From Peptoniphilus gorbachii (GTDB lineage Bacteria; Bacillota; Clostridia; Tissierellales; Peptoniphilaceae): a stretch of 64,000 bases of DNA. Below are positions 5,574 to 26,547 of the stretch, in pieces (within the stretch, counting starts at the first letter, position 1; every line of letters begins with the position of its first letter). Under the pieces are notes generated by a model that was not told the origin of the DNA, ran no database searches, and saw only the letters and a list, made by a program, of their open reading frames with translations. The stretch is taken from positions 248,001-312,000 of the forward strand of contig NZ_JAFBDH010000001.1 in NCBI RefSeq assembly GCF_016908115.1, written 5' to 3'. Made by a program: the position numbers and the translations under genes.

Positions 5574-6614
5574 TTAATAGTAACTTTTATAATCTGTCTC
5601 TAAATATTTTTTTAAATCTCTTGGCTTATAAATTCCCTTGTCTGTTACAAAACCACTTATAAGTTCTGGTGGTGTTATATCAAAGGAAGGATATATAGCT
5701 TTAACTCCTTTTGCTGTATGATCACCTAAAACAAGAGAAGGGTCTCTTAATTCAATCACTATGTCCCTCTTTGTCTTTTTTCCCCAATCTGGCATGCCCG
5801 TTATATAAAAAGGAACCTTAAATTCCCTTGCCACAATAGCAATTTGGTGTGTTCCAACTTTATTTGCCACATGGCCATCAAGAGTAATTGTGTCTGATGC
5901 CGACGTAAATAGATCTATGCCAATATTTTCCATAGTGTAGGCAACCATATTATCTGTTATAACAGTTGTATCAAAGCCCATTTCACTTATTGAAGTTGCA
6001 GTAAGTCTTGCCCCTTGATAATAGGGTCTCGTTTCTGCACAGTAAAATTTCACATTTTTGCCTTGCTCTTTAAGCGTTCTTGTCATTGTGCCAATAATTG
6101 TCTCTGCAAAACATTGTGTCAAAACTTTTCCTCCATCTGGAATTAAATCGCAGAGGTATTTGGCAACATCATTCATGGCACTGTATCTTCTATTTAGAGA
6201 ATTTATAGCTTCTTCGAAAATTTTTTCAACTACATCTTCTCCCTTTTCAACTGCTTTTTTTGCAACATCTATGGATCCCTTTGTAACTTTTTTTAGTCTT
6301 GTAGATGTAGTTGGCCTTGCAGTAGAAATTGTATTGGCTGCATCTTCTAAATATTTTAAAAGCTCGTCCCCTTTAAGATCTCTAGCCTCATAGGCAGCAA
6401 GTGCCATACCCATTCCTGCTGCCGTATAGGGGCCAGCAGATTGAGTTACCATATCTTTTATTGCTTTTGCAACTTCTTTGTGATTTTTGCAAATTTCAAA
6501 TCTAACTTTTTTTGGATAAACTCGCCTATCTAAAATTCTAACTTCTCCATTTTCATACCAAGCTACATTTTCATATCTAAGCATAAAAGGCATGTCATAA
6601 TCTTGTCTTTTCAT
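5574..6614 (-). CDS. MtnA-like aldose-1-phosphate isomerase (methylthioribose-1-P isomerase/eIF2B-like family)
   Basis: The 346-residue protein aligns by eye with MtnA throughout: ARPTTSTRL (about 99-107), LTQCFAE with Cys168 at the catalytic cysteine position, CAETRPYYQGARLTA (192-206), ITDNM (219-223), SASDTI with Asp241 at the catalytic aspartate, ANKVGT (250-255) and FDITPPELIS. The family converts S-methyl-5-thioribose-1-phosphate, or related 1-phosphates such as 5-deoxyribose-1-P and ribose-1,5-bisphosphate, to ketose-1-phosphates. The usual GADRI is altered, so the substrate is open. The ATG directly abuts the stop codon of the phosphorylase gene (TAAATG), so the two are surely cotranscribed. 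No mtnK, mtnB or mtnD-type genes for a full methionine salvage pathway lie nearby; the aldolase at 7.5 kb suggests a DHAP shunt instead. Confidence 0.88.
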   Translation of the reverse strand: MKRQDYDMPFMLRYENVAWYENGEVRILDRRVYPKKVRFEICKNHKEVAKAIKDMVTQSAGPYTAAGMGMALAAYEARDLKGDELLKYLEDAANTISTARPTTSTRLKKVTKGSIDVAKKAVEKGEDVVEKIFEEAINSLNRRYSAMNDVAKYLCDLIPDGGKVLTQCFAETIIGTMTRTLKEQGKNVKFYCAETRPYYQGARLTATSISEMGFDTTVITDNMVAYTMENIGIDLFTSASDTITLDGHVANKVGTHQIAIVAREFKVPFYITGMPDWGKKTKRDIVIELRDPSLVLGDHTAKGVKAIYPSFDITPPELISGFVTDKGIYKPRDLKKYLETDYKSYY

Positions 6615-7445
6615 TTAATCATCTATCTCCTCAATTATTTTTAAAATTAAGTTTTTTAACTTTGGTGAAACTTCTCTCGCCACATCTTCCACTTCAGTTC
6701 CGTCCATATTTTCAATTCGATCAGAGGAATAATTTGTGGCAACAGAAAAAGCAAGAACTTTTATGCCACAATGTCCTGCCGTTAAGGTTTCAGTAATTGT
6801 TGACATACCAACTAAGTCTCCACCAAGAGTTCTTATTGCTCTTATTTCTGATGGCGATTCAAAAAATGGACCCACTGTAAAAAAGTAAACAGCTTCTTTT
6901 ACTTCAAAGCCTAACTTAATTGCAGATTTTTTTGCAAGTTTTCTAAGTTTTTCATCATACAATTTATCAATGGGATAAAATCTTTCTCCAAATTCAGCTA
7001 AATTGTTGCCCCTAGTTGGACTCACACCTGCAAAATTTATGTGATCTCTTATAAGACAAATATCTCCTGGATAAAAATTATAATTTACAGCACCTGCTGC
7101 ATTTGTTAAAATTAATTTTTCAACACCAAGAAGTTTTAAAACATAAACTGGCATGACCAATTCATCAAAGTCATATCCTTCATAGTAGTGAAATCTTTTG
7201 GTCATGCAAATAACCTTTTTGCCTGATAATTTTCCAAAAATAAATTTTCCCTCACTATTATTAGTTGTTGAAATTAAAAAATTTGGCACATCTCTATAGT
7301 TTATTTCAATTTTATCTTCCATTTCGTCTAAAAGATTTTCAAGGCCTGTGCCAAGAATTATTGCTATCTCTACTTTTGTTTTTATCTTATCTAAAATATA
7401 ATCAGCACTTTTTTTATAAGTATCAAAATTCTTTTTCTTTAACAT
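6615..7445 (-). CDS. Purine nucleoside phosphorylase (PNP/MTA phosphorylase family)
   Basis: The 276-residue protein has the trimeric PNP pattern: LGTGLENL (phosphate site), Arg84-x-His86 with Tyr88/Glu89 (RFHYYEG), NAAGAVN (115-121), FFESPSEIRAIR with Glu196, VGMSTITE and VATN with Asn238. The Glu/Asn pair is the signature for 6-oxopurine nucleosides; methylthioadenosine phosphorylases usually carry Asp at the Asn position. The expected reaction is inosine or guanosine (perhaps deoxyadenosine-type substrates) plus phosphate to base plus pentose-1-phosphate. It is the first gene of an operon with the MtnA-like isomerase, which would use the sugar-1-phosphate product. Divergent from the aldolase gene. 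Confidence 0.9.
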   Translation of the reverse strand: MLKKKNFDTYKKSADYILDKIKTKVEIAIILGTGLENLLDEMEDKIEINYRDVPNFLISTTNNSEGKFIFGKLSGKKVICMTKRFHYYEGYDFDELVMPVYVLKLLGVEKLILTNAAGAVNYNFYPGDICLIRDHINFAGVSPTRGNNLAEFGERFYPIDKLYDEKLRKLAKKSAIKLGFEVKEAVYFFTVGPFFESPSEIRAIRTLGGDLVGMSTITETLTAGHCGIKVLAFSVATNYSSDRIENMDGTEVEDVAREVSPKLKNLILKIIEEIDD

Positions 7446-7538
7446 TCTACCTCTCCATTTATTTATATCTAGTCTAACACAGCATATTCAATTGTCAATT
7501 ATATCAAAAATATGATAAATTATTATTTGAGGTGCAAG

Positions 7539-8123
7539 ATGAATTATAAAAAACTTTTAATAGATTATGGAAAAAAACTTTTAGATAAAAATTTAGTTGC
7601 TGGAACAAGTGGAAATTTAAGCCTTAGAGGACAAGGTGATGAAATTTACATAACGCCGAGTGGTATGGACTATTTAGAAATCACAGAAGATGACATTGTA
7701 AAAATAAATTTTATGGGTGAAATACTAGAAGGAGATAAAAAACCTTCATCAGAATGGATGATGCATGTAGAAATTTATAAAAATTACCCAAATTATAATG
7801 CAATAGTCCACACTCATTCTCCTATTGCCACAGCCTTTGCAGTTTCACGAAAGAAAATTCCCCTAATATTAATTGAAATGAAGCCTTTTTTAGGTGGAGA
7901 AATTAAAGTTGCTCCCTTCAAGCCTTCAGGTTCTCTTGAACTTGCAAAATCTCTTATCCCATATTTAAAAAAATCAAATTCCTGTCTACTTGCAAATCAT
8001 GGAGTCGTTTCTTGTGGAAAGAACATTGAATCTGCTTTTTTATCTGCAGAATATGTTGAAGACGCTGCAAAAATTTATTATTATTCCTTAAATATTGGCG
8101 AGCCAAAGATAATCGAAGAATAA
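7539..8123 (+). CDS. Class II aldolase (L-fuculose-phosphate aldolase/Ald2-like)
   Basis: The start is the ATG at 7539, behind GAGGTG; an in-frame ATG at 7512 lacks a site. The 194-residue product has the zinc-dependent aldolase/adducin signature: GTSGNLSLR (22-30), TPSGMDY, Glu72 in SSEWMMH, His91 and His93 (VHTHSP) and His154 (ANHGV). The three histidines match the zinc ligands of FucA and the glutamate its catalytic residue. Such enzymes split ketose-1-phosphates to DHAP plus an aldehyde. It is transcribed away from the phosphorylase-isomerase operon across a short divergent gap. With those genes it could complete conversion of a nucleoside sugar to DHAP. The true aldehyde product is not deducible. 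Confidence 0.88.
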   Translation: MNYKKLLIDYGKKLLDKNLVAGTSGNLSLRGQGDEIYITPSGMDYLEITEDDIVKINFMGEILEGDKKPSSEWMMHVEIYKNYPNYNAIVHTHSPIATAFAVSRKKIPLILIEMKPFLGGEIKVAPFKPSGSLELAKSLIPYLKKSNSCLLANHGVVSCGKNIESAFLSAEYVEDAAKIYYYSLNIGEPKIIEE

Positions 8124-8180: not shown

Positions 8181-9251
8181 TTATTTAGATCTACTTGTCA
8201 AAAATTCGTTAATCTTTGGTGCAACTTCTCTTTGACTTCTACCAGATACAAAAAGTCCAATGTGACCTGTTTCAACTTCAACAAGTTCAACATCTTTTGA
8301 GCCAACTGCCTTAGGAATTGGTCTTGTTGCATTTGGTGGAACTTGATTGTCCTTTGTGCCTAGAATTGCAAGCACTGGGCATTTTACATTTTTAAGGTCA
8401 ACTCTTTCGCCATCGAGATAAAACTCACCTTTAATTAAATTATTTTTGTGATACATTTCTTCTTGAAACTCTTGATAAGCTCTTCCAACTTGATCTGGTG
8501 AATCGAAAATCCAGTGTTCCATACGAAGGAAGTTTGCAAGTTTATTTGAATCGTCAAGAGAATCAATAACACCAACATATTTATCCATCATTAAATCAAT
8601 TGGCTTTAAGAATACAAAACCTGCATTCATAAATTCTCCAGGCACATTTCCAAAGGCCTTTACCATATTTTCTGGATTTAGATATGGTCCCCATTTAAAT
8701 AGGAGTCCATCATCAGTAGAAAAATCAATTGGAGTTACAAGTGAAACAAGTGCATTTACTTTTTCACCATGAGTAGCTGTATAAATAAAGGAGAAAGTTC
8801 CCCCTTGGCAAATTCCAATAATGTTAATTTTTTCAATCTTGTGTCTTCTTCTAATTATATCTACGCAATCATCAATATAACCATTTATATAATCTTCAAG
8901 TCCCATATATTTATCATCCATTGTTGGATAACCCCAATCAATGATATAAATGTCTTGTCCACCTTCTAATAAATTTTTTATAAGAGATCTATCTTCTTGT
9001 AAGTCCATCATGTATTGCTTGTTTACAAGAGCATATACAATTAAAGTTGGAATTTTATTTGGATCTTTTACTTTTGCTTCATAATGATAGAGCTTCATCT
9101 TGTCTTCTTGAAAAATTAGCTCCTTAGGAGTTGCATCAAAGCCACTATAATCGACATTCATAAGAGTGTCTACACCCTTAATAAGTTTTTCATATGAGTC
9201 GACCATATCTGACATTGACTTAACATAATCTATTCCAAATACGTTTTTCAA
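8181..9251 (-). CDS. phaC: Class III poly(3-hydroxyalkanoate) synthase, catalytic subunit PhaC
   Basis: The 356-residue alpha/beta hydrolase has the synthase lipase-like box GICQGG with Cys148, the acid in GTKDNQVPP (Asp301) and the base in ETGHIG (His330). These positions are shifted by one from the Cys149/Asp302/His331 triad of the Allochromatium class III enzyme, and the length matches that class. It polymerises hydroxyacyl-CoA into intracellular polyester granules. It lies 15 bases downstream of a PhaE-like gene, the expected partner. No phaA, phaB or phaJ is in the window, so the monomer supply is unknown. ATG start with AGGAGG. Confidence 0.93.
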   Translation of the reverse strand: MKNVFGIDYVKSMSDMVDSYEKLIKGVDTLMNVDYSGFDATPKELIFQEDKMKLYHYEAKVKDPNKIPTLIVYALVNKQYMMDLQEDRSLIKNLLEGGQDIYIIDWGYPTMDDKYMGLEDYINGYIDDCVDIIRRRHKIEKINIIGICQGGTFSFIYTATHGEKVNALVSLVTPIDFSTDDGLLFKWGPYLNPENMVKAFGNVPGEFMNAGFVFLKPIDLMMDKYVGVIDSLDDSNKLANFLRMEHWIFDSPDQVGRAYQEFQEEMYHKNNLIKGEFYLDGERVDLKNVKCPVLAILGTKDNQVPPNATRPIPKAVGSKDVELVEVETGHIGLFVSGRSQREVAPKINEFLTSRSK

Positions 9252-9266
9252 ATTAATAACCTCCTA

Positions 9267-10325
9267 TTATTTATTATCCTTTTTTTCTTCATCAAATTCT
9301 TTGTCTCTAATGTGTTTTTTTAGGCTTCTAACTTCTTTTTTAAGTTCATATACTGTTTTGTAAAGTGAATCCATGTCAGAATTTGTTGGAATTGGATACC
9401 ATTTAAGGGATTCTTCAACAACTTTATCTAAGTCAATTTTTAAAAGCATTAAGGAATCAACAAAATTACCTAAAAACTTAGAAAATTCATCTGAGTAAAA
9501 TAATTTATCAAACTCATCTGATGTTTTCTTTCTCCAATAATTGTAAAATTCTTCAAAAGTCTTAGGTGCTTCTCCCTTTTTTATCATTTCGAAACTATCT
9601 TTTACAACATTTTCTGTTGATTCTGTAACTAAGTTTGATAGCATTGTAGTTAACTCTAGATAGTTTCCAATGAAAGTAATAAGCTTATCTATTGTTTTCA
9701 TTTGCATTTCATAAGAATTTCTGTCAATTCCAAATTGTGGAGAATTTAACATTTTTCCAAAAGTTTCTCCGTAATTTTTCTTCCAGAGTTTAAAAAATTC
9801 AAGGAATGCCTTAGGATCAGCAAAGGCTCCCTTCATTACAGAATCCATTAAGTCAGATGAAGTATCCATCCATGGACCATAAACTGTCATAAGAGTATCC
9901 CTATAACTTTCACATGCACCCATGCATTGTTTAATTAAATTTTGTAAATCAACTGGAATATATGGGAAAAGATAATTGTTTATATATTGAAGTGAACCAT
10001 CCTTATATTTTTTCATTATCCTTTCAAAATTTTCTTTTGTTGGTTCTATGCTTTTGTCATAAATATTCTTATAAAGTTCATAAATGCTGTAATAAATTTT
10101 AGAGGTATCTTTAATTTTTTGTGCAAGTTCAGAAGGCGTACCACTATAATTAAAGAAATCAGCACTTCCTAAGTCTCCAAAAATTTTGTTCATACTTGAA
10201 AGATATTCTTCACTAAAGGGATTAAAATTATTTCCTCCAAAAGATTTTGCATAATCTTGCCACATATCCATCATCTTTTTTTGTGAATTCATATAGTCTT
10301 CAAAGAAATTGTATGCTTTATCCAA
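9267..10325 (-). CDS. phaE: PHA synthase subunit PhaE (class III)
   Basis: I place the start at the TTG at 10325 behind GGAGG, not at the longer in-frame start at 10406, which would begin with an unlikely AT-rich leader. The product is 352 residues, close to known PhaE (about 357) and twice the size of class IV PhaR. It is largely helical and aromatic-rich (DMWQDYAKSF near the start, WYPIPTNSDMDSLYK and a charged coiled coil KKEVRSLKKHIRDKEFDEEKK at the end), as in PhaE. PhaE has no active site of its own and is required for PhaC activity. Its place directly upstream of phaC supports the call, since sequence conservation in this family is low. Confidence 0.85.
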   Translation of the reverse strand: MDKAYNFFEDYMNSQKKMMDMWQDYAKSFGGNNFNPFSEEYLSSMNKIFGDLGSADFFNYSGTPSELAQKIKDTSKIYYSIYELYKNIYDKSIEPTKENFERIMKKYKDGSLQYINNYLFPYIPVDLQNLIKQCMGACESYRDTLMTVYGPWMDTSSDLMDSVMKGAFADPKAFLEFFKLWKKNYGETFGKMLNSPQFGIDRNSYEMQMKTIDKLITFIGNYLELTTMLSNLVTESTENVVKDSFEMIKKGEAPKTFEEFYNYWRKKTSDEFDKLFYSDEFSKFLGNFVDSLMLLKIDLDKVVEESLKWYPIPTNSDMDSLYKTVYELKKEVRSLKKHIRDKEFDEEKKDNK

Positions 10326-10462
10326 ATTAATTCCTCCTCTTATTTTTATAATAAATAATATTATTTTATGTTTATACTCTATTGTCTTATAACTTTTATA
10401 CCCCAAGTTACTTAAAATTTAACAATTTAAAGATTTATTACTTTTTTTAGATAAATCCAAAA

Positions 10463-11415: not shown

Positions 11416-12633
11416 CTAAGCAACAAGACGTTCCTGCTGTTTCTTTTTTTCCAAGCGGTTCATCTCTGCCATAGCAGAATCGAATGTAGCATGTGCGTAA
11501 TAGTTCAGCGTCATGTTTATATTCGCATGCCCCATAATGTACTGCAATGCTTTTGGGTTCATTCCTGCATTTGCATAGTTAGTGCAGAACGTATGACGCA
11601 AAATGTGTGGAGTGATATGGGGTAGCTTATCCTCATGATATTTATTGTATTTCTTGACAAGGTTTTTCAACATACCATTGTAATCACTTGCCACTTTAGG
11701 ATAGTCTTTCCCATTGAGAAAAAGGAAATTACTATAACCATCAATCACAACACATTTACGGTTCTTCCGATTCGCCAGCACTCGCTGAAACGCTTGATAG
11801 GCTTCTTCAACCATAGGAACTTGTCGTTCGCCACTTTTAGTCTTGGGAGTTTCAATGTAGTATCCATTTTCAGTATCTCGTAGTAACTGATGGTCTACCT
11901 TGACAAGACGATTTTCAAAATCCAAATCTGGAAGTGTCAGACCGCCAAACTCTGAAATACGAAGACCCGTTTTTAAGAGTATCAGGATTTCATCATAATT
12001 CTTGCTGTAGGTCTTATCAGCTTTCGCAAAGGATAACAGCTTTTCTTCCTGCTCCGTTGTCAATGCGACTTTAGGAACAGTATCATCATCAATGACGGTA
12101 TTTAGCTGGAAGTCAAAGGGATTCTTCCGAACACAATCGTCTTCAATCGCAATATAGAATGAAGCCCTTAAAGAACGTTTATAGTTATTGATGGTTTGAT
12201 AAGCATATCCATCTTCACTCATTCTAATCGCCCATTCTTTAGCGTCAGACGGTTTAATGCTGTCTATGCTCCTTGCACCTAACTTGTCCTTTGTCAAAAT
12301 ATCCATCAGATATTTCCGTCCAGTTTGCGTGCCTTTCTTCACATTGGGTCTTTGAGCATTCTGCTTTGCGTAAAGCTGACAAAGTGTCATTTTCTTTCCT
12401 ACAACATCAATGCCATCATGAATGTCTTTCAGTAGCTCCGCAACTTTTTCCCGAAGAGGAACACAATCACGCTTTCCTGCTGGTACTCTGTCTGTAGCCA
12501 CCAGTTTCCATGAGTAGATAAATTGCGGTTCTCCAAATGAATCTACATATTTATATAAGTATCTTCCGTCTTTTCGTTGGCTCTCCCCAGTCTTTAAAAT
12601 GCGACCTTTATTGTCACGTCTTTTCTCTGACAT
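11416..12633 (-). CDS. int: Tn916-type tyrosine recombinase (integrase)
   Basis: The 405-residue length equals Tn916 Int. It has the N-terminal arm-binding domain, a SAM-like core-binding domain (about 75-165) and a catalytic domain with GLRISE (catalytic Arg), HILRHTF (His-x-x-Arg), GHAN and Tyr in LNYYAHATFDSAM near the C-terminus. It cuts and rejoins the ends of the element at low-specificity AT-rich sites. From memory of Tn916 Int there are many scattered substitutions, so this appears to be a divergent allele of the family; an alignment would settle how far. Directly downstream of xis on the minus strand. Confidence 0.97.
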   Translation of the reverse strand: MSEKRRDNKGRILKTGESQRKDGRYLYKYVDSFGEPQFIYSWKLVATDRVPAGKRDCVPLREKVAELLKDIHDGIDVVGKKMTLCQLYAKQNAQRPNVKKGTQTGRKYLMDILTKDKLGARSIDSIKPSDAKEWAIRMSEDGYAYQTINNYKRSLRASFYIAIEDDCVRKNPFDFQLNTVIDDDTVPKVALTTEQEEKLLSFAKADKTYSKNYDEILILLKTGLRISEFGGLTLPDLDFENRLVKVDHQLLRDTENGYYIETPKTKSGERQVPMVEEAYQAFQRVLANRKNRKCVVIDGYSNFLFLNGKDYPKVASDYNGMLKNLVKKYNKYHEDKLPHITPHILRHTFCTNYANAGMNPKALQYIMGHANINMTLNYYAHATFDSAMAEMNRLEKKKQQERLVA

Positions 12634-12714
12634 GGCTTTCGCTCCTTTCCAAAATGGAAAGAGCCTTGATACGACTTAATGCTATTTTATCATATCCAAG
12701 ACCCTTTGGCGACG

Positions 12715-12918
12715 CTAGATTGCGTCCAATTTATCAATAATTTTTTCAAACTGTTTTCGCTTTATCTGAATACGATTGCCATTCATAATCAGCCAATCAG
12801 CATTTTTATTTTCATCTGCCAAACGACGGAGCTTATTTTCGCCAATACGGAAATACTTAGACGCTTCTTCAATGGTCAGGGTATAACGCTCCCAGATAGG
12901 AATATCTGTCTGCTTCAT
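12715..12918 (-). CDS. xis: Excisionase Xis
   Basis: The start is the second ATG (12918) behind AAAGGAGG, giving 67 residues beginning [12 protein letters not shown], the Tn916 Xis length and sequence type. It has a winged-helix fold with [20 protein letters not shown] as the DNA-binding helix pair. Xis bends DNA near the element ends and directs Int to excise. It is followed by int after 81 bases. Confidence 0.96.
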
Positions 12919-13379
12919 AAAATCCTCCTTTCCCAATCACACGTTAGATTTCATAAAAGTAGTTTTACAAGCAATCGAACAGCTTTAGCAAAGCTCACGG
13001 GAGTTCCACCCTTGCACGGTTCTCGTCCAACTGTACTCATTGCCTGCGACGCTTTTAACGCTCGGACTATGACGATACAGGAGTATCATTATTACGATAA
13101 GAATGTCTTCGCTGGCAATCCTGCTAAAGATTACTTCTCGGATCACTGACATGAATCGCTCGCTATCTTTACAGGGCAGGTCATGGCGGTCAGCTCCGTT
13201 GGCTCTTTTCTTATCGAAATGTATTCGACTGCTGTTATTCAGTTTTCAAAGAACAGATGGCTTGTCAGCCTATCAAAACATACTGAAAGACAATATGCTT
13301 TGATGGAATAACAAACCTCCCCAATCGGGAAGTATGGAAAGCTCGTCCGCACTTCCACGAAAAGAGAGATAAATCGGTG
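12919..13379. other. Spacer between orf8 and xis
   Basis: The 461-base stretch has no convincing gene. One small minus-strand frame (12985-13152, 55 codons, start MSVIREV) has no ribosome binding site and loose codon use. Plus-strand frames here are antisense to xis. The stretch is not AT-rich and is probably a leader for the xis-int transcript; I saw no strong terminator in it. Confidence 0.4.
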
Positions 13380-13610
13380 CTACTCAATCTCAAATGACAG
13401 GATTTTTGTAATCAACCTGGTTTCCATTCGTCCACGTAAGACCTCATCAACGACCATACTTTGATTGCCATATTCATCTTTCATCAACCGTAGAGAGCGT
13501 TTAGCAATGTACCCTCTGTAATAATGTAGAATCTGGTTAATCGCTTCTGTATCGCCATCACAAGCCTTTACAATCAATGGGAATGGAATTCTGGAATATT
13601 CTTTTCTCAT
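13380..13610 (-). CDS. orf8: Tn916 Orf8-type helix-turn-helix protein
   Basis: This 76-residue protein (MRKEYSRIPFPLIVKACDGD start, MVVDEVLRGRMETRLITKIL end) matches the small conserved Orf8 of Tn916, which has a helix-turn-helix-like N-terminus. Its start overlaps the stop of orf7 by four bases, so the two are translationally coupled. With orf7 it belongs to the regulatory operon that raises expression of xis, int and the transfer genes once tetracycline lets transcription run through tet(M). Confidence 0.93.
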   Translation of the reverse strand: MRKEYSRIPFPLIVKACDGDTEAINQILHYYRGYIAKRSLRLMKDEYGNQSMVVDEVLRGRMETRLITKILSFEIE

Positions 13611-14032
13611 TCTTCGTTTTCCTCCTCCATAAACTTCTTGATTAAGGCTAGTCCACTGGTTCTATGCCGATAGACAGTAGAACGGTTCAATTTCAACAGG
13701 TCTGCAATTTCTGAATCGCTCATGTCCATAAAGTAAAACAGCAGTAGAATTTCACGTTTCTTGTCTGGCAACTCACGTAATGCTTCACTCAACAAATCAT
13801 TTTCAACGCCTACTGATAACCCATTGAGTGTAAAAATCTGAAAGTCAGTTGAATAGTTATCTGTTGTCGCAAACTGGCTAACAAGATAATCGCCAACATC
13901 CGAAAAGGACACCTCACGCTTTGCAATCCTTGAAAGATAAAGCATATAATTCTTTCGCTCGTCTTCCATAGCACGTTTACAGATATAGTCAAACTGATTT
14001 TCTATTGTGGTCTGAAAAGAAGATGGTTTCAT
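13607..14032 (-). CDS. orf7: Tn916 Orf7-type sigma-factor-like activator
   Basis: The ATG at 14032 follows GGGGTGAG (the GTG nine bases further up has none), giving about 141 residues. The C-terminal half has a sigma-70 region-4 helix-turn-helix (LPDKKREILLLFYFMDMSDSEIADLLKLNRSTVYRHR, about 88-124). In Tn916 Orf7 acts with Orf8 as a positive regulator of the element. Overlaps orf8 by four bases. Confidence 0.93.
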   Translation of the reverse strand: MKPSSFQTTIENQFDYICKRAMEDERKNYMLYLSRIAKREVSFSDVGDYLVSQFATTDNYSTDFQIFTLNGLSVGVENDLLSEALRELPDKKREILLLFYFMDMSDSEIADLLKLNRSTVYRHRTSGLALIKKFMEEENEE

Positions 14033-14536
14033 GTTTCTCACCCCCTTTCTGTCTAGGAAAGGAAGTGAGCCTTGCTCGTTTATCTCCTTTCACTCTTAGT
14101 CCCAATGTGAAAGGGGGATTTGTTGCATTACTGATAAATAAACTTTGTAAAAAAGTTCTGAATAGCCAAAAAAGCATATAAACAGATTTATTTCTCTGTT
14201 TACATGCTTCTGTTATTCTATCTATATGATTTATAAAACCACATTGGTGGACGTACTTATCTATTGCAGATAGACGACTTTTTTTGACAAGAACCCAATG
14301 TAAGGAAATTTATTGTATATGATGTACTTCATGGCGACGTTGACCTCCAACAAACCGCCATTTGGAAGTAATATACAATATTTTAACAGCGTAAATAGCA
14401 CTACCATATAACGGTTTTTTTTATTGGCGTTTAGTAGTGCTTTTTATTAAATATAAACCTATAAACCATATAACACGTTTTTCTATACCTGTTTTTAATT
14501 CAGTAGGAACAATAAAATGTATAGAGGTGGTCTACT
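14033..14536. promoter_or_regulatory. Divergent regulatory region between orf7 and orf9
   Basis: No gene longer than a few codons is evident here. The region holds a minus-strand terminator-like hairpin at 14172-14207 (AAGCATGTAAACAGA stem with T tail) just upstream of orf7, and a plus-strand hairpin with AGCACTAC/GTAGTGCT arms at 14397-14441 followed by TTTTATT. In Tn916 this region contains the orf7 promoter repressed by Orf9 and read-through controls. GAGGTGG before 14537 is the orf9 ribosome binding site. Confidence 0.6.
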
Positions 14537-14890
14537 ATGCGTAAAAAAGAAGATAAATATGATTTTAGAGCCTTTGGTTTAGCCATTAAAGAAGCTCGAT
14601 TGAAACGAGGTTTAACTCGTGAACAAGTGGGAGCATTGATTGAAATTGACCCACGGTACTTAACTAATATTGAAAATAAAGGGCAACACCCCAGCATACA
14701 AGTTCTTTATGACCTTGTATCGTTACTTCATGTTTCCGTTGATGAATTTTTCTTACCTGCTAATAACTTGGTAAAAAGCACCCGACGATTACAGATAGAG
14801 AAATACATGGATAGCTTTACAGACAAAGAACTATCCTTAATGGAATCTTTAGCCAGCGGTATCAACGAAGCAAGAAACATCGAAGACTAA
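14537..14890 (+). CDS. orf9: Tn916 Orf9-type Cro/CI repressor
   Basis: The 117-residue protein has an N-terminal HTH_3 domain ([41 protein letters not shown], about 14-54). It is the only element gene on the plus strand, facing the orf7 operon it is thought to repress. The last 40 residues seem to differ from the Tn916 copy I remember, while the DNA-binding half is the same type. Confidence 0.92.
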
Positions 14891-14915
14891 TTAAAAGAAT
14901 CCATACATAACGGAA

Positions 14916-14960
14916 AGAGCCGATAAAATGAGATTGTATTAATCTCATTTTATCGGCTCT
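14916..14960. terminator. Large hairpin between tet(M) operon end and orf9
   Basis: A perfect 20-bp inverted repeat (AGAGCCGATAAAATGAGATT, 14916-14935, and its complement 14941-14960) with a 5-base loop. It overlaps the last codons of the small zinc-ribbon gene and lies where transcripts from tet(M) and orf9 converge. Tails are only weakly T-rich, so it may be a barrier or processing signal as much as a terminator. Confidence 0.75.
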
Positions 14961-15138
14961 GCGTCTTTGCGTCTGGCTCTGTAATCACAGTTACTTTGAA
15001 CTGCTTTATTTCAATTAAATTTTCTTGTCTGCATTTCGGACAATAGAGGGGGAATTTTTTTAATTCAGTATCTTCCCTTATCTTTAATCGTGTTTTATTT
15101 CCACATACAGGACATAATATCCACTTGTAGTTTATAAT
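14950..15138 (-). CDS. Small Cys-rich zinc-ribbon protein downstream of tet(M)
   Basis: The frame encodes about 62 residues with two CPxC pairs (CPVCGNKTR and CPKCRQE), a zinc-ribbon layout of the Cys-rich KTR type seen after tet(M) in Tn916-like elements. An in-frame TAA directly precedes AAGGAGGAG, and no ATG, GTG or TTG lies between that site and the first cysteine. Initiation must therefore use ATT (15138, spacing about right) or an ATA. Codons are otherwise normal. Function is unknown. It would be cotranscribed with tet(M), which ends 98 bases upstream. Confidence 0.7.
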   Translation of the reverse strand: MINYKWILCPVCGNKTRLKIREDTELKKFPLYCPKCRQENLIEIKQFKVTVITEPDAKTQSR

Positions 15139-15235
15139 AACTATCTCCTCCTTTACACTTTAATTCAAATCTTTATTAAAAAATATTTCATCTTATTTAA
15201 CAAGAAACCATATTTATATAACAACATAAAATACA

Positions 15236-17155
15236 CTAAGTTATTTTATTGAACATATATCGTACTTTATCTATCCGACTATTTGGACGACGGGGCTGGC
15301 AAACAGGTTCACCGGTAGTAACATGGTACCCTTTTAACTCTGTTAAACAAACACTACGTCCATTTGTAAAGAAAGTTAAATCACTACGATATTCTTGAAT
15401 ACACCGAGCAGGGATTTCTCCACTAAGAATGACCTCATTATTTTTCAATTGAGTGTCTACGATGTTCGCACAATATTTAGGAGCATCGTTGTATGCTCGT
15501 GAAAGATATTCCTGTGGCGCATAAATTTTAAAACTAAGATATGGCTCTAACAATTCTGTTCCAGCTTTTTTTAAGACTTGTTCCAATACAATAGGAGCAA
15601 GCATCCGAAAATCTGCTGGGGTACTAACAGGGCTATAGTATAAGCCATACTTAAAACAGATTTTACAGTCCGTCACATTCCAACCATATAATCCTTGTTC
15701 GCAACCATAGCGTATCCCTTCCATAACTGCATTTTGAAATGATTGATTTAAGTATCCAAGAGAAACCGAGCTCTCATACTGCATTCCACTTCCCAACGGA
15801 AGCGGTGATACAGATAAACCAATGGAAGCCCAGAAAGGATTTGGCGGCACTTCGATGTGAATGGTATATTCTGCATTTTTTAACGGTCTCTCCATATAAA
15901 TGACTGTAGGCTCTTTTAGTTCTATCTCCACATGATACTTTTCTTGCAACAGTGCACTAATCACTTCCATTTGTACTTTCCCTAAGAAAGAAAGTATAAT
16001 TTCATGTGTCGTAGAATCCACGTAATATCGTAGAAGCGGATCACTATCTGAGATTTCCAAAAGGGCATCAAGCAACATTTCTCTCTGTTCAGGTTTACTC
16101 GGTTCAACAGTTGTTTGTAGTAGAGGGTGCGGATTTTCAATCTTTTTTCTCTGTGGCAATAGTTTTGTATCTCCAAGAACACTATTTAACTTCAAAAACT
16201 CATTTTGCAAAATAACAATTTCTCCAGAATAAGCTCTATCAATCTTACATAATTCACCATTTATTGAAGTATACATTTCTGTAACTTTTATTTTTTCTTT
16301 TTCTGATACTCTAACCGAATCTCGTAAATGTAGTACTCCACTATAAAGGCGTATATATGCAAGACGTTGTCTTTTTTTTGTATATTCAATTTTGAAAACA
16401 TTTCCGCAAAGTTCAGACGGACCTCGATGTGTTGATGAATAAAATTTATTAGTAATAACTTCTATAAGGTTATCAATCCCTATATTACTTTTTGCACTTC
16501 CATGATAAAGAGGGAACAGAGAACAATTCTGAAATCTTATGCTTTCCTCTTGTTCGAGTTCCAATGCTTCTAATGATTTACCGGACATATATTTCTCTAA
16601 AAGGTCATCGTTTCCCTCTATTACCGTATCCCATTGTTCAGATTCGGTAAAGTTCGTCACACACATATTAGGATACAGTTCTACCTTCTGTTTGATTACA
16701 ATTTCGGCAGAAAGTTTCTCTTTAATATCCTGATAAACCGTTGATAAATCAATTCCATTTTGGTCAATCTTATTGATAAAAAAGATTGTGGGAATCCCCA
16801 TTTTCCTAAGTGCATGAAATAATATACGAGTTTGTGCTTGTACGCCATCTTTTGCAGAAATCAGTAGAATTGCCCCATCTAAAACTGATAATGAACGATA
16901 TACTTCTGCTAAGAAATCCATATGTCCTGGCGTGTCTATGATGTTCACCTTCGTATTTTCCCACTGAAAAGAGGTTATTCCTGTCTGAATTGTAATTCCT
17001 CTCTGACGTTCTAAAAGCGTATTATCCGTCCTCGTTGTACCTTTGTCCACGCTTCCTAATTCTGTAATCGCTCCACTGTTATATAATAAGCTTTCTGTTA
17101 AGGTAGTTTTTCCTGCATCAACATGAGCTAAAACTCCAATATTAATAATTTTCAT
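15236..17155 (-). CDS. tet(M): Tetracycline resistance ribosomal protection protein Tet(M)
   Basis: The start is the ATG at 17155 behind GGAGG, giving the standard 639 residues (an ATG five codons upstream overlaps the ribosome binding site). It has the EF-G-like GTPase motifs AHVDAGKTT (G1), DTPGH (G3) and NKID (G4), followed by EF-G domains II-V to the C-terminal FNKIT. Tet(M) binds the ribosome and releases tetracycline. Expression is governed by the leader upstream (orf12 and hairpins). The sequence matches Tet(M) almost throughout by recognition, so tetracycline, doxycycline and minocycline resistance is expected. Confidence 0.98.
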
Positions 17156-17170
17156 GTGATTTTCCTCCAT

Positions 17171-17257
17171 TCAAAAACCCAAAAGGGCATAAAAATCCCA
17201 GTGATAAATACTTTTATCACTGGGATTTTTATGCATAACCATAGGTATACAAAGCAT
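17171..17257 (-). CDS. orf12: tet(M) leader peptide (Tn916 Orf12)
   Basis: A 28-codon frame (MLCIPMVMHKNP start, DFYALLGF end) ends 15 bases before the tet(M) ATG, its stop adjoining the tet(M) ribosome binding site. The coding sequence contains both arms of the terminator hairpin at 17191-17230. This is the Orf12 leader of Tn916, whose translation under tetracycline is thought to let RNA polymerase pass the hairpins. Confidence 0.9.
   Translation of the reverse strand: MLCIPMVMHKNPSDKSIYHWDFYALLGF
17191..17230 (-). terminator. Attenuator hairpin within the tet(M) leader
   Basis: Perfect 18-bp arms (AAAAATCCCAGTGATAAA and complement) with a 4-base loop; on the minus strand the stem ends in TTTTT. 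It lies inside orf12 and is the transcription attenuator proposed for Tn916 tet(M). Confidence 0.88.
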
Positions 17258-17378
17258 ACAGATATTCTCTGGATACTTTAGAATCACATGATAAAGGTAT
17301 TCTTAAACTGGGTACAAAAAACTAAGCCCTCCTAAAAAAGGACATCCAATTATTTGTTCCCACTATCAAATTGACAGT

Positions 17379-17402
17379 TTATTTAAGAATACCTTGCTGC
17401 AT
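17379..17402 (-). CDS. Seven-codon upstream leader peptide MQQGILK
   Basis: ATG at 17402, AAAGGAG 9 bases upstream, TAA at 17379. The frame covers one arm (GGTATTCTTAAA) of the long inverted repeat, so a ribosome on it would block that hairpin. Size and place resemble leader peptides of ribosome-mediated attenuators. No independent proof of translation. Confidence 0.5.
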   Translation of the reverse strand: MQQGILK

Positions 17403-17433
17403 ATTTATTAACTCCTTTTAAATAGATACTTAA

Positions 17434-17462
17434 ATAATAGCACGTAAGAGCATATTTGTAAA
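17434..17462 (-). promoter_or_regulatory. Promoter for tet(M) leader transcript
   Basis: TTTACA (17457-17462) and TATTAT (17434-17439) on the minus strand are exactly 17 bases apart, upstream of the leader peptide and hairpins. Confidence 0.7.
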
Positions 17463-17531
17463 GGAATCTCCAATTTTTTATCAAAGAGAGTACGTGATTA
17501 CAAAATAGCTGTAATAATGTACCAATATTTG

Positions 17532-18449
17532 TTATTCTATAATCTTCCAATTACTCCCGTTCTTTTCAAGTACCAAATCAAATTGAGATACCTGCGTTGC
17601 TTTGGTCTGCTGGTCGATATACTCCACTGTCAGCGATACCGTGACTTGATTATCCTTACGATTGTGAATAGGATTTACCAGTTCTTGAAAGATGTACTCT
17701 TTTCCGATTGGTTTTAATATCCCGTCATTCACATAGTAGGAAAGTTCACTGGCTGTCGCTGTAGGATAGAGCTTGAAGAACGTCGTTAAAAACTCATTGA
17801 TTTCATTGGTTGTAATGGAATCAACCGTCCCCTCACTTTCAATGGCTTTTGGTTTATAACTTGATTTCTTAGGTATGTTGGTAATGGTCGGATTCTTAAC
17901 CAGTACCATATTTCCAGAACCATCTACATAGACACTCACTATATAAGCAGAGTGGACGGTCTTTGTATTTTCTCCCTCTGTAATGAGCTGGTCTACACTG
18001 TAGGTTACATTAAACTCATTGTCGCCAGTTGGCTCTACCGTCCATATCTGAAATCCTCTTACAGAAGACGATACAGGAATATCTTTGCGTACTGTATCAA
18101 CATTGAGAGCTTGAAGTTCATCTGTCAGATAGCCTTTTAGACTTTCCATTCGATTATCAATGGACTTATCGGATTGCTCCCATGAATAGTAGACTTTCGC
18201 AAAGTTCTCTACAAAATTTTCTACATGATGAGTATCAACGTATTCCTTTTCTATGATAGTTGTTTCGTGAATAGTATGAGTATCTATAGCTGTAAAGTGC
18301 TTGAATATCGCAAAGCTGAAACTAAGCCCTAAAAGTACCCACAAGGCAATCACAACCTTTTTATGAGGATTGACCTTATAGTAGACACGAGGTTTCTTTT
18401 CCTTTGGTATCTGTTTTTCTTTATTCTGATTTTTTCTAAATTTCATCAT
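17532..18449 (-). CDS. orf13: Conjugal transfer protein Orf13 (TcpC/VirB8-like)
   Basis: I start at the ATG at 18449, behind GAAAGGA, giving 305 residues. A basic N-terminus and one membrane segment (about 31-48) precede two NTF2-like periplasmic-type domains (about 70-190 and 205-305), the TcpC/ConC arrangement. TcpC is an outer-face scaffold of the Gram-positive conjugation channel. Its first codons follow the orf14 stop. Confidence 0.93.
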   Translation of the reverse strand: MMKFRKNQNKEKQIPKEKKPRVYYKVNPHKKVVIALWVLLGLSFSFAIFKHFTAIDTHTIHETTIIEKEYVDTHHVENFVENFAKVYYSWEQSDKSIDNRMESLKGYLTDELQALNVDTVRKDIPVSSSVRGFQIWTVEPTGDNEFNVTYSVDQLITEGENTKTVHSAYIVSVYVDGSGNMVLVKNPTITNIPKKSSYKPKAIESEGTVDSITTNEINEFLTTFFKLYPTATASELSYYVNDGILKPIGKEYIFQELVNPIHNRKDNQVTVSLTVEYIDQQTKATQVSQFDLVLEKNGSNWKIIE

Positions 18450-18463
18450 TAAATCTTCCTTTC

Positions 18464-19465
18464 TCATTGTTTGATTCGTCCTGCTCCCACTAAATGCTGT
18501 TGCCAGTAGGGGCTTGTTAAGTCGGCATAACCGATTGGGTCGCCTGCATGAAACATACGGTTATTGCCAAGGTATATCCCAACATGAGTAATATAAGAGC
18601 CAGCGTTATAGGTAGAATGAAAGAAAACCAAATCGCCAGCTTGTGCTTCCGATAGTGGGATATGCTGGGTCACATCATATTGCTGTTGTGCGGTTCGTGG
18701 TAAGTTAATTCCAGCTTTTCCATACGTCCATTGTGTCAGTCCGCTACAATCAAAAGAAGTAGTCGGGGAAGCTCCACCGTAAACGTATCGCCAGCCCTCA
18801 TATTTCAGTGCTTCGTCCATGATGGCTTGTACCGTATCATCATCAAACTCTGTTGTGACAAGATACTGCGTTACCAGTTGCACATAAAACATATTGCCAT
18901 AGTTGTATCGCCAGCCCCCATTGATAGGTATGGCTATGGGATTGGGGTAAGACACTTTTTCGCCACCTGAATACTCTTTTGAGAAACTTTGAGCCAGTTC
19001 AAAGGTATATTTATTTCCACGATTAGCCACATACCCTAAGAAACCACCACCATAATTGTAGGACTGGATAACCGATTCTAAATCTACACTGAGCCTTTCG
19101 CTACTGGCTAATAATTCACTGAAATACTTCACACCTTGCTTAATGGATTCTTCTGTACTCAATGAATTAGGTGGAAGACCGAGGGATTCCGAGGACTGCA
19201 TAACATCTTCCGCAGTACCGCCCGATTCCACCTGTATAATCGCAAGAAGTATGTTGACATATTCTTCAACGCCATATTCTTTGGCATATTTTTCTACCAT
19301 AGGCTTATGAGCCAGCACTTCTGCGGAAACATTCACACCTCCATAATGAATATTGGAAATTCCGCTGTCCTGTTCATCTGAAAATAAAATGGCAACAAAC
19401 AGAAGCAGTGAGAAGACCATCAAGAATAATCCAGAACCACCAATCACTAAAGTTTTCAACTTCAT
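18464..19465 (-). CDS. orf14: Conjugation cell-wall hydrolase Orf14 (lysozyme-like plus NlpC/P60)
   Basis: The 333-residue protein has a membrane anchor (about 8-28), a lytic transglycosylase/lysozyme-like domain (catalytic Glu in IIQVESGG, about 70-200) and a C-terminal NlpC/P60 peptidase with Cys in SFDCSGLTQW, His in ITHVGIYLG and a final polar residue in FHAGD. It opens peptidoglycan for the conjugation channel. It overlaps orf15 by four bases and orf13 is directly downstream. Confidence 0.95.
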   Translation of the reverse strand: MKLKTLVIGGSGLFLMVFSLLLFVAILFSDEQDSGISNIHYGGVNVSAEVLAHKPMVEKYAKEYGVEEYVNILLAIIQVESGGTAEDVMQSSESLGLPPNSLSTEESIKQGVKYFSELLASSERLSVDLESVIQSYNYGGGFLGYVANRGNKYTFELAQSFSKEYSGGEKVSYPNPIAIPINGGWRYNYGNMFYVQLVTQYLVTTEFDDDTVQAIMDEALKYEGWRYVYGGASPTTSFDCSGLTQWTYGKAGINLPRTAQQQYDVTQHIPLSEAQAGDLVFFHSTYNAGSYITHVGIYLGNNRMFHAGDPIGYADLTSPYWQQHLVGAGRIKQ

Positions 19466-21639
19466 GGTTTCTTACCGACTTTCTTAATGGTGGCGGTTTT
19501 GATTGGTGGTCTACTTCTTGTATTTTGTAGTGGTACTCTTTGAACAGTAGACGGACGTTCTTTTGTGATTGGACGTTGTGAAGTTCTATCTGCTGTAGTG
19601 GTTGAAGTTGCTGGCTTTTGAACGGTTTTTTCTTGAACGGTATTGCCTTGGCGTTCCACTTTTGGACTTGAAAAATCGGACTTAACTGCTGGACGCTCTT
19701 GTTTGGCTTGTTGAGATTCCTTATATGAAGTCTGAATATTAGACTGTTTTGAGGTCTGTTCATCATGATATTGTTCTTGTCTTGTAGTCGGTCTTTCATG
19801 AACAGAAGAAGCAGGCTGTTTTTTCTGTTTGACCTGTTCCATTTCAGAGCGACGCTTCGCAATGGTTTTTCGCCTTTGTTCCTGCTGTTCCTTGCGTCCA
19901 CTGGCTCTGTCCGCTTTGGTTTGAGAAATACTACTGGTTAAATCACGGACATTCTCTTTTACTTTGGATTTTCCTTGATATACTGCATATCTTGCATTGG
20001 TCGGCAAATCTTTAACCTGTTCTTTCAAACCACTAGCAGTGTCTACCATTCTGTCTTTGGTATCAGCTACTGTACCGATGGTTTGACCGATACGTTTTCC
20101 AAGTGTTGATTTTTCCTTTCCGTCTGGTCGGGAGTGATCTGCTTGTGTCCTTGCAGAACTCCCCGAACCCGACTGTCCTTTTTTACCTGTAACAATGGCA
20201 GACCCAGCCCCTAGAGTAGTCATGGAACGTCCAAGTTTCCGCTGTAGACGGTGCATGTGAGCGTGCATAAGCATACGAGGTTTTCTCATCACACGACTTC
20301 CCACACTTTGAGAATCGTTACTCTGTAGAGAAAACATACTCATTAAATCGCCCAGCTTGAAGTAGATTCCTGCAAAGGTCACAATCTGTAGAAAAGCAAT
20401 CAAAAAGAACGGATAACCAGCCGATAAGGTATAGAGCATGGTTGAAATACTAAATGCTGTCGTAATAATCAATGTGATTCCAGCTCGTGTCAAAATGGTA
20501 TTAAAGAGCTTTGTTATGGCTCGTTTTGACATACCATCAAATGATGGAATCATGCTTAAAATAAAGCTCACAGGCAGAAACATAGCATAGATGATAAAAA
20601 GTACCTGCGAGAAAATCATGATTCCTGTTAATAGGAATACAAATATGGAAATCCCAATATTGAAGACAAATAGGAAGAAGACTGTACCTAAACGGTTAAT
20701 GGTCTTTGTAATGGTTAGATTGGTATTGCTTCTGTCTTCAATTTCTTCCGCAACAATTTTTTCTCTGTCTTCGCCATTGTTGGAATCTGGGCTGGTGGAG
20801 AGCAGGCTTTCCACACGGTCAATACCGATACTTTCAATGTCTGAACTGTTGTATTGAAGCAGTAGCCACGGTTGCTGAACCTGTATGGAAAACAGGCTAT
20901 CTCTGATTAAGTCCACGCTGTCCTTGCCTTGACTATCGGAATGGGGCATGACAATCTTCGTGCCAAGTGATAAACTGGCATTACTGATGTCTGATGAAAA
21001 GTCATTGATTTTTTTAATGTAGTCGGGAGCGTAGGCAATAAAGGAAGCCGATAGGATAAACACCAGCACAAAATTCATAATGGCATGAATTGCCTTTGTG
21101 GTTTCTCTCTTTATCAGTCCCGTATAGGCAACATAAACCCCAAGAACCAAAATCAAGAGTAAGAGGAATCCAACATAGAAACCCTCTGTTGAAAATCCGT
21201 TTGCACTCACACCAGCTAAGGTCTGCATATTCTTACCAATGGAATCTGCTGTAGCGGAAATGAAGTCTAAGGAATAGGCTTCCTGTACTAAGTAACCTGT
21301 CGCATTGGAAACATACAAACTGATTGTCCAAATAAAATTGGTAATGGCATATAGTCCATACATGACCTGTTTTCCAATCCCGTCCGACCAGTTCCACGGA
21401 AGCCAGCCCCAGCTATTATCCACATAAAAATCCAGTTGATAGTTTTCAAGTGGGTATCGGCTGTATTCATTTGCCACATTGACCGTATCATCTACCAAGC
21501 CCGCAGCTTGAACCACCGTTCCCAGCATGGCTAAAAGAAAAATGGCAATCACAAGTGTGAAAGCCACTGTCATTGCCACTTTACCTAGACGTTTCAGCGT
21601 CCAGTTTGATTTTATTCTGTTTACTATTGATGGTTTCAC
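19462..21639 (-). CDS. orf15: Conjugation channel membrane protein Orf15 (VirB6-like)
   Basis: This 725-residue protein has an N-terminal signal-like segment, about seven to eight membrane segments up to about residue 430, then a long cytoplasmic tail rich in Gln, Lys, Arg, Ser and Thr that is likely disordered. It is the Orf15/ConG-type polytopic subunit of the Tn916 channel. It lies two bases after orf16 and overlaps orf14. Confidence 0.93.
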   Translation of the reverse strand: MKPSIVNRIKSNWTLKRLGKVAMTVAFTLVIAIFLLAMLGTVVQAAGLVDDTVNVANEYSRYPLENYQLDFYVDNSWGWLPWNWSDGIGKQVMYGLYAITNFIWTISLYVSNATGYLVQEAYSLDFISATADSIGKNMQTLAGVSANGFSTEGFYVGFLLLLILVLGVYVAYTGLIKRETTKAIHAIMNFVLVFILSASFIAYAPDYIKKINDFSSDISNASLSLGTKIVMPHSDSQGKDSVDLIRDSLFSIQVQQPWLLLQYNSSDIESIGIDRVESLLSTSPDSNNGEDREKIVAEEIEDRSNTNLTITKTINRLGTVFFLFVFNIGISIFVFLLTGIMIFSQVLFIIYAMFLPVSFILSMIPSFDGMSKRAITKLFNTILTRAGITLIITTAFSISTMLYTLSAGYPFFLIAFLQIVTFAGIYFKLGDLMSMFSLQSNDSQSVGSRVMRKPRMLMHAHMHRLQRKLGRSMTTLGAGSAIVTGKKGQSGSGSSARTQADHSRPDGKEKSTLGKRIGQTIGTVADTKDRMVDTASGLKEQVKDLPTNARYAVYQGKSKVKENVRDLTSSISQTKADRASGRKEQQEQRRKTIAKRRSEMEQVKQKKQPASSVHERPTTRQEQYHDEQTSKQSNIQTSYKESQQAKQERPAVKSDFSSPKVERQGNTVQEKTVQKPATSTTTADRTSQRPITKERPSTVQRVPLQNTRSRPPIKTATIKKVGKKP

Positions 21640-21641
21640 AT

Positions 21642-24089: not shown

Positions 24090-24465
24090 AAAATTCACTC
24101 CTAACTGTCGTAATGGCTTCTTGTGGCTGGTTTCTGCCAAGGGTTACTTTTTTCCCTGCATAGGTCAGCTTTGGTCGCAGTGCATAAGCAATGACAGACT
24201 TCAAAAATCCATAAGGCTTTTTACCATCAAAGGTTTTTGTAGACATAAACCATGTGAAAGCCACAGGAATTCCAAAATATTTGAGAAATGCTCCCTCAAT
24301 CATGGAAAGAGGTGGCAAGTTGCCAAGTATCATAACCGCAAACAGTGACACGACAAACCACGTCATTTGCGTAAAGGTTATGGGAAACGGAAGTCTAAAA
24401 TCGTTGATGGAGTACAGCACTTTCTCAACAGACCAAATACTGGTATAGCTTCGTATTTTCTTCAT
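24073..24465 (-). CDS. orf17: Conjugal transfer protein Orf17 (TcpE family)
   Basis: Start at the ATG at 24465 (GAAAGGA upstream), 130 residues. Two membrane segments (about 28-46 and 57-72) and the block KTFDGKKPYGFLKS are characteristic of TcpE. It is a small membrane part of the transfer channel and overlaps orf16. Confidence 0.92.
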   Translation of the reverse strand: MKKIRSYTSIWSVEKVLYSINDFRLPFPITFTQMTWFVVSLFAVMILGNLPPLSMIEGAFLKYFGIPVAFTWFMSTKTFDGKKPYGFLKSVIAYALRPKLTYAGKKVTLGRNQPQEAITTVRSEFYGISN

Positions 24466-24478
24466 AGAATCAATCCTT

Positions 24479-24976
24479 TCAATAGACGATTTCAAAAATC
24501 CCATAATTGGTTGTGATAAAAGTTCCCGAAATTTCTAAATCACGACCATAGGATTCGTAATCAATATAGTTTTGAAGACTGGTTGGCACTTCGCCCAATA
24601 CTCCAGTTTCTTCAATGTAGTAACGTGCGACATCTGCCATATCATCACAATCCGAGTGAATGATAATATCCTCTTGATGTTCGCTTAGTTCCTCAATACT
24701 TGAAAAATGAGTGAGCAGAGCAGATAGCTCGGATTGTAGTTCCTCTGGCAACTCCGATACCATTTCCCATAGGCGATTGAGTTCGCCAATAGAAGTGTAT
24801 TCGTCAACCGTAAAGGGTAACTCATAATCGTGAATGGCGTATTCCTCGTATTCATCATTCAAGCCGATTTTCTCTTTGACTTCTTCAAAATCAATGGGAA
24901 AGGTAAACCAAGCACCGACTAATTCTCCTTCATTGTATTTACCTAAGTTGGCAATATAGACTTGCATATCGTCCAT
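24479..24976 (-). CDS. ardA: Antirestriction protein ArdA (Tn916 Orf18)
   Basis: The 165-residue acidic protein begins with VYIANLGKYNEGELVGAWFTFP, the typical ArdA start, and is rich in Asp/Glu throughout. ArdA mimics bent B-form DNA and blocks type I restriction enzymes when the element enters a new cell. It lies between orf19 and orf17 as in Tn916. Confidence 0.96.
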   Translation of the reverse strand: MDDMQVYIANLGKYNEGELVGAWFTFPIDFEEVKEKIGLNDEYEEYAIHDYELPFTVDEYTSIGELNRLWEMVSELPEELQSELSALLTHFSSIEELSEHQEDIIIHSDCDDMADVARYYIEETGVLGEVPTSLQNYIDYESYGRDLEISGTFITTNYGIFEIVY

Positions 24977-25092
24977 GTGTTCACGTCCTTTCTTTGTAGA
25001 GATTCAAAAATCCCTACCGCACTTCGTTTGGTGTACCATTCTTTTGCGGAACATAAGAAAACCACTTATATTCCACAAAATAACGGTTTAAT

Positions 25093-25314
25093 TTAAGCAC
25101 CGATAATGCGATTAAATAGCTCTAATAAAATGTCTTTTACTCCAGCAGCGTTGAACACCAAGCCCACCGCAATAATCGCAATGATGAGAAAGCCAATCAG
25201 TTTACTAAACTCACGCTTGAAGCCAAGATACAAGCCAATTACAACGATTGCTAAAAGTACCAGTGATTGAGCATTTGATAGAAACCAGTTATAAAGGTTT
25301 TGTCCAAAATTCAT
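25093..25314 (-). CDS. orf19: Small membrane protein Orf19 (TcpD-like)
   Basis: The 73-residue product has two membrane segments (about 15-30 and 37-54) separated by FKREFSK, the pattern of Tn916 Orf19/TcpD. It is thought to be a minor transfer-channel subunit. AAAGGAG precedes the ATG. Confidence 0.9.
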   Translation of the reverse strand: MNFGQNLYNWFLSNAQSLVLLAIVVIGLYLGFKREFSKLIGFLIIAIIAVGLVFNAAGVKDILLELFNRIIGA

Positions 25315-25356
25315 AAAAATGTTCTCCTTTCTGTATGCAGTGAATTTGTATTTAAG

Positions 25357-26532: not shown

Positions 26533-26547
26533 AGTTTGTTCATTCAG

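Follow-up and report, generated by a model that had tools for sequence, protein, structure and literature searches.

5'-Deoxyadenosine is a toxic by-product of radical-SAM enzymes that also inhibits them, and anaerobes possess many such enzymes. In the interpretations given so far, the bacterial clusters known to dispose of it act on 5-deoxyribose or else on the adenine nucleoside directly. In the drdK/I/A cluster of B. thuringiensis, a kinase first acts on free 5-deoxyribose, and a paralogous MtnA-like isomerase and a class II aldolase then lead to DHAP and acetaldehyde (PMC6079011). The locus described here possesses the same kinds of isomerase and aldolase, but a PunA-type phosphorylase takes the place of the kinase, and its genome has neither the kinase nor MtnN. 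It also resembles, in logic and in predicted end products, the DHAP shunt (mtnK or mtnP, mtnA, and ald2) of E. coli ExPEC and other bacteria (PMC10986504, PMC12632272). The stated inputs of that shunt are adenine nucleosides, whereas our phosphorylase belongs to the 6-oxopurine PunA family, which implies prior deamination. We propose that these three genes probably act as a DHAP shunt in which SAM-derived 5'-deoxynucleosides, chiefly 5'-deoxyadenosine, are first deaminated.

The stretch of DNA that we analysed (the window, 64,000 nucleotides from Peptoniphilus gorbachii) lies within contig C1 of a 1.87 Mb genome that is 99.99% complete. An earlier note on the window had placed a phosphorylase, an isomerase, and a divergent aldolase at 5574-8123, and all three genes are present there (Table 1), with the aldolase standing divergent from the other two. 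The note had also described the phosphorylase and isomerase as fused end-to-start. The minus-strand junction is indeed TAAATG (TAA|ATG), so the two abut; they are, though, two adjacent genes and not a single fused protein.

Table 1. Features of the three-gene locus, in window coordinates
Feature	Position	Strand	Remarks
PNP2, PunA-type 6-oxopurine nucleoside phosphorylase, specialised paralogue	6615-7445	(-)	276 aa; PNP_UDP_1 E=9e-43
MtnA-like aldose-1-phosphate isomerase, DrdI type	5574-6614	(-)	346 aa; IF-2B E=2e-48
Class II aldolase, FucA/DrdA-like	7539-8123 (listed ORF 7512-8123)	(+)	Aldolase_II E=2e-52
Shared divergent promoter region	7470-7502		near-invariant, six congeners

Two other features of the window may be recorded. 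Adjoining the trio at 8181-10406 is a PhaC/PhaE-like class III polyhydroxyalkanoate synthase pair, of which PhaC passes its model and PhaE falls below the cut-off. A Tn916-like integrative element with integrase and conjugation genes occupies 11416-28133; it carries a tet(M)-type ribosomal protection gene (15236-17170) and matches to the RNA families SQ2397 and sRNA_0030.

A search of relatives for the same three-gene cluster, as suggested in the earlier note, found it both within and outside the genus. The isomerase occurs in five of the 13 congeners compared, always with the trio in the same arrangement, which gives six same-genus carriers (the window's genome and the five congeners) with identical gene order in 6/6; among the 13 congeners, none has PNP2 without the isomerase. 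Two further genera of the family (L046 and L047), with 63-70% identity to the window in isomerase and PNP2, keep the trio within ~5 kb and possess an amino-acid-permease-family transporter upstream of PNP2. They also have a DeoR-type regulator beside the aldolase, much as MtnR adjoins the E. coli DHAP-shunt operon. The shared order in six carriers, the two other genera, and the lack of any PNP2 without an isomerase together indicate linkage beyond chance. In one congener (G010, L042:8775-9603), PNP2 is frameshifted while the isomerase and aldolase are intact, which may reflect genuine decay of the gene or an error of sequencing.

The divergent promoter region, 90 bases long, shows strong conservation across the six congeners. 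An inverted repeat, AATTG-T-CAATT (7490-7500), overlaps the promoter-like -35 boxes of both directions, and we infer that the PNP2-isomerase arm and the aldolase arm are co-regulated. Genome-wide, this motif is present in a single copy, at the trio, and a regulon joining the trio to the deaminase discussed below was therefore rejected.

The isomerase is the sole PF01008 gene of the genome, and its catalytic residues Cys168 and Asp241, which the earlier note had listed as in place, correspond to invariant alignment columns. Judged by sequence, it is not a canonical MtnA but a member of a distinct paralogue clade: it scores 198 bits against TIGR00512 (mtnA, cut-off 279), and is 32% identical to the canonical MtnA copy of L053 versus 49-89% within its own clade. 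The nearest named record among the matches listed is Peptoniphilus sp. SUG200 (85% in the isomerase), and the clade is spread, again among the matches listed, over Bacillota, Spirochaetota, Chloroflexota, and others. Of its at least 583 loci, the best 80 were analysed, with neighbours defined as genes within ~4.5 kb and with near relatives that are not independent. A methylthioribose/5-deoxyribose-kinase-like gene stands near the isomerase in 23 of these 80 loci, for example in Virgibacillus, Enterococcus, Vagococcus, and Clostridium, and in 18 of the 23 the aldolase is found as well. This kinase-isomerase-aldolase neighbourhood is the layout of the drd/DHAP-shunt clusters (PMC6079011). Gene-level features of such clusters are found here too: the isomerase and class II aldolase are linked and adjacent in the window and in the six carriers, and the supplier of the sugar-1-phosphate is the adjacent phosphorylase, PNP2.

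In the isomerase tree, which left out B. thuringiensis DrdI itself, the window type nests inside the kinase-linked members (node of 27 rows, support 99/98). In B. thuringiensis, the kinase encoded in such a cluster acts specifically on 5-deoxyribose and methylthioribose (PMC6079011); given this specificity and the nesting, the simplest inference is that the substrate of the isomerase is still 5-deoxyribose-1-P or methylthioribose-1-P. Both paralogues can be seen side by side at L053:784-11452, which holds a DrdI-type isomerase and aldolase as well as canonical MtnA, an MTIP-type phosphorylase, transporter genes, a Zn-ADH-like gene, and an MtaD-like deaminase.

For the aldolase, the start codon deserves attention. 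GAGGTG precedes the ATG at 7539, and this ATG is kept in congeners whereas that at 7512 is not; position 7539 is therefore the likelier start. Glu72, His91, His93, and His154, the catalytic residues named in the earlier note, are in place with numbering that fits this start (counted from 7512, they are Glu81, His100, His102, and His163). Among PDB entries, the aldolase best matches chain 6btd, listed as a fuculose phosphate aldolase, which we take to be the B. thuringiensis DrdA structure.

PNP2 keeps His86 and, as the earlier note had recognised, the 6-oxopurine pair Glu196/Asn238, which we confirmed in an alignment that takes human PNP as the yardstick for numbering. It passes the PunA model NF006054 (298 bits, cut-off 218), falls below the stricter TIGR01700 (272 bits, cut-off 293), and fails the MTAP model (64 bits, cut-off 275). 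At the position of human His257, PNP2 has Gly249. The same genome has a second PunA, PNP1, which lies beside a pyrimidine nucleoside phosphorylase and retains the His; with this separate housekeeping enzyme present, PNP2 can be regarded as a specialised paralogue.

The PunA proteins linked to the isomerase, chosen by gene linkage and not by residue, form one clade (PunA2, support 100/100). All 17 have Glu201/Asn243 in human numbering, and 16 of the 17 have a residue other than His at position 257 (nine G, two T, two D, and one each of A, N, and E; the seventeenth has His), versus His257 in 35 of 37 other PunA-type PNPs (Fisher P=1e-10; rows not independent). In human PNP, His257 contacts the 5'-OH of the ligand, with a bond that was not very persistent in simulation (PMC4308819). 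We read the loss of His257 as a sign of relaxed or removed 5'-OH recognition. Gly is found throughout the sub-clade of the window's PNP2, which suits a 5'-deoxy substrate, and an enzyme of this kind would favour 5'-deoxynucleosides over inosine. PNP2 is thus within the PunA sequence family, yet it has Gly249 where a housekeeping inosine/guanosine PNP would have the His257 equivalent, and a housekeeping function is not supported. PunA2 proteins outside the window's family often carry a polar residue (D, E, N, T) at position 257, and the L179 protein has His there, so the loss of 5'-OH binding is not established for the whole clade; the polar residues may leave room there for a ribose substrate. 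A PunA-type PNP outside the shunt clade (L035:2526-3341, genome G056), beside a canonical MtnA, has Val at the human His257 position and is possibly an independent MTI phosphorylase.

Ribose is the substrate of the alternative that survives best, that is, ordinary catabolism in which inosine or guanosine (or deaminated adenosine) would give ribose-1-P, ribulose-1-P, and then DHAP plus glycolaldehyde, bypassing the pentose phosphate pathway. This would agree with the 6-oxopurine signature of PNP2, with the polar residues of several PunA2 proteins, and with the PnrA-like nucleoside importer that heads one related operon (L141). Against the model for haloarchaeal ribulose-1-P aldolase (cut-off 300), the aldolase scores 139.6 bits and so falls short of the cut-off, and haloarchaea do make DHAP and glycolaldehyde from guanosine, but via R15P and RuBP (PMC9700705). 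We nevertheless consider ordinary catabolism unlikely, since all window-type PNP2 proteins have Gly at the 5'-OH position, PNP1 is already in the genome, and the isomerase nests with kinase-linked isomerases whose characterised kinase yields 5-deoxyribose-1-P or MTR-1-P. The earlier note had offered ribose-1-P or 5-deoxyribose-1-P as the intermediate. Taken together, PNP1, the missing His257, the isomerase nesting, and the deaminase operons described next make 5-deoxyribose-1-P the better supported of the two, and ribose-1-P less likely.

A 6-oxopurine phosphorylase is expected to make poor use of 5'-deoxyadenosine; therefore, one should expect to see a deaminase. The genome has one MtaD/DadD-like amidohydrolase (C4:29626-30903), for which the best models are PRK06038 (453 bits, cut-off 609) and PRK08393 (433 bits, cut-off 617), with 362 bits against the 5'-deoxyadenosine deaminase model PRK07228 (cut-off 522). 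It is unlinked to the trio throughout the genus and is present in 14/14 genomes, including congeners without the trio, so its presence alone is not discriminating and it was rejected as a carrier-specific gene. MtnN is absent from the same 14 genomes. Across 61 genomes, a deaminase (threshold of at least 290 bits, set after the scores were seen) was found in 36 of 38 without MtnN versus 7 of 23 with it (P=1.3e-7; counting the genus once, 1.4e-5; no other correction for phylogeny). Our literature search returned nothing directly usable on bacterial 5'-deoxyadenosine deaminases or on a PNP His257Gly mutant.

In other bacteria, the deaminase is encoded between PunA2 and the isomerase, with reading frames that abut or overlap, in Mycoplasmatota zrk6 (L141), Flexilinea (L149), and four Clostridia MAGs (L148, L155, L179, and L187). 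The fullest of the set, L141:1366-11869, is an apparently complete operon in the order DeoR, PnrA-like binding protein, ABC ATPase, two permeases, PunA2, deaminase, isomerase, Fe-ADH, and aldolase. At L052, the deaminase occurs with a uridine-phosphorylase/DeoD-family protein, aldolase, permease, Fe-ADH, and isomerase. Among the best 80 of at least 583 loci, a deaminase lies beside 6 of 9 PunA2-linked isomerases versus 0 of 23 kinase-linked ones (Fisher P=9e-5). With a deaminase encoded between PunA2 and the isomerase in these operons, prior deamination offers the best explanation of the 6-oxopurine signature. Bmp-type importers would fit ordinary nucleosides as well. One could imagine a general bacterial route through PunA2-deaminase-isomerase-aldolase operons, in which imported adenosine would be deaminated and phosphorolysed to ribose-1-P and converted via ribulose-1-P to DHAP and glycolaldehyde, all without a kinase step, a bisphosphate intermediate, or the pentose phosphate pathway; we hold this to be quite doubtful.

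A direct DHAP shunt, in which PNP2 would phosphorolyse 5'-deoxyadenosine or MTA with no deamination, like MTAP in known shunts, also seems rather improbable. Phosphorylase-type drd clusters have been read in this manner (PMC6079011), and the deaminase is unlinked in the genus. On the other hand, the residues and model scores of PNP2 are those of PunA and not of MTAP, and related operons carry the deaminase. Even the MTAP-like partners beside related isomerases (L053 and L057, the two tested) pass the MTI-phosphorylase cut-off only, pointing to likely 6-oxo substrates.

Under the deamination-first reading that we prefer, the deaminase would convert 5'-deoxyadenosine to 5'-deoxyinosine (or MTA to MTI), and PNP2 would cleave 5'-deoxyinosine with phosphate to hypoxanthine and 5-deoxyribose-1-P. 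The DrdI-type isomerase would then form 5-deoxyribulose-1-P, which the aldolase would split into DHAP and acetaldehyde, the latter being reducible by an alcohol dehydrogenase. What the sequence itself shows is which genes are present, how they are linked, their residues, their phylogeny, and what else the genome contains; every reaction and substrate, and the feeding of PNP2 by the deaminase, are predictions from these. The shunt interpretation of the earlier note is, as a whole, partly supported, in that genes, linkage, and residues all argue for a phosphorylase, isomerase, and aldolase set directed toward DHAP.

The likely input can be narrowed from the genome content. There are 21 radical-SAM matches, no true spermidine synthase, and no mtnK, a gene whose absence the earlier note had thought worth checking, nor any kinase in the genome for sugar-1-phosphate supply; among endogenous inputs, 5'-deoxyadenosine is accordingly the likeliest. 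Spermidine synthase as a source of MTA was rejected because the single weak PF01564 match is an O-methyltransferase, and canonical methionine salvage because mtnK is missing and the isomerase is only 32% identical to canonical MtnA. A shunt serving mainly MTA/MTI sulfur salvage, ending in DHAP and a methylthio-aldehyde, is very improbable in view of the missing spermidine synthase and the many radical-SAM matches, even though B. thuringiensis DrdK/I/A together also turn MTR into DHAP (PMC6079011); imported MTA could still be a source of substrate. As the genome has neither SAHH nor MtnN, SAH may be a further major substrate of the deaminase, or even its main one.

If deamination does come first, many PNP, MtnA, and N-ethylammeline-chlorohydrolase annotations in anaerobes would be wrong or incomplete, the purine would be released as hypoxanthine, and genomes without MtnN would gain an explanation for by-product clearance. 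The comparison suggests one isomerase/aldolase core for which, depending on lineage, three or more types of enzyme (among them kinase, PunA-type, and MTIP-type) carry out the first step. On the gene content, the trio is best described as a variation on a salvage route already known. We found no description of a PunA-type phosphorylase combined with a drd-type isomerase and aldolase and with deamination first in the accessible literature, whose journal coverage is partial, so that this is not proof of absence.

The phosphorylase of the archaeon Methanocaldococcus jannaschii is of the MTIP type and is not known to belong to PunA. Its DadD/MtiP/isomerase system (Miller et al. 2014, 2018, as cited in PMC6302742) resembles the predicted route in deamination, phosphorolysis of 5'-deoxyinosine or MTI, and isomerisation, but the original proposal, as cited there, routed the ketose-1-P to 6-deoxy-5-ketofructose-1-P, whereas here a PunA-derived phosphorylase is combined with a drd-type isomerase and aldolase. 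In Pseudomonas aeruginosa, an MTA deaminase and MTI phosphorylase (Guan et al. 2011, 2012, as cited in PMC6302742) likewise deaminate a 5'-modified nucleoside before phosphorolysis, but that route of MTA degradation leads through methylthioribose-1-P, and a DHAP-forming aldolase is not described for it in the account cited. Finally, the haloarchaeal non-carboxylating pentose bisphosphate pathway (PMC9700705) employs a nucleoside phosphorylase, an IF-2B-type isomerase, a class II aldolase, and an aldehyde reductase to reach DHAP, as the trio and its partners would, but its route passes by way of ribose-1,5-bisphosphate and also uses a kinase and a phosphatase.
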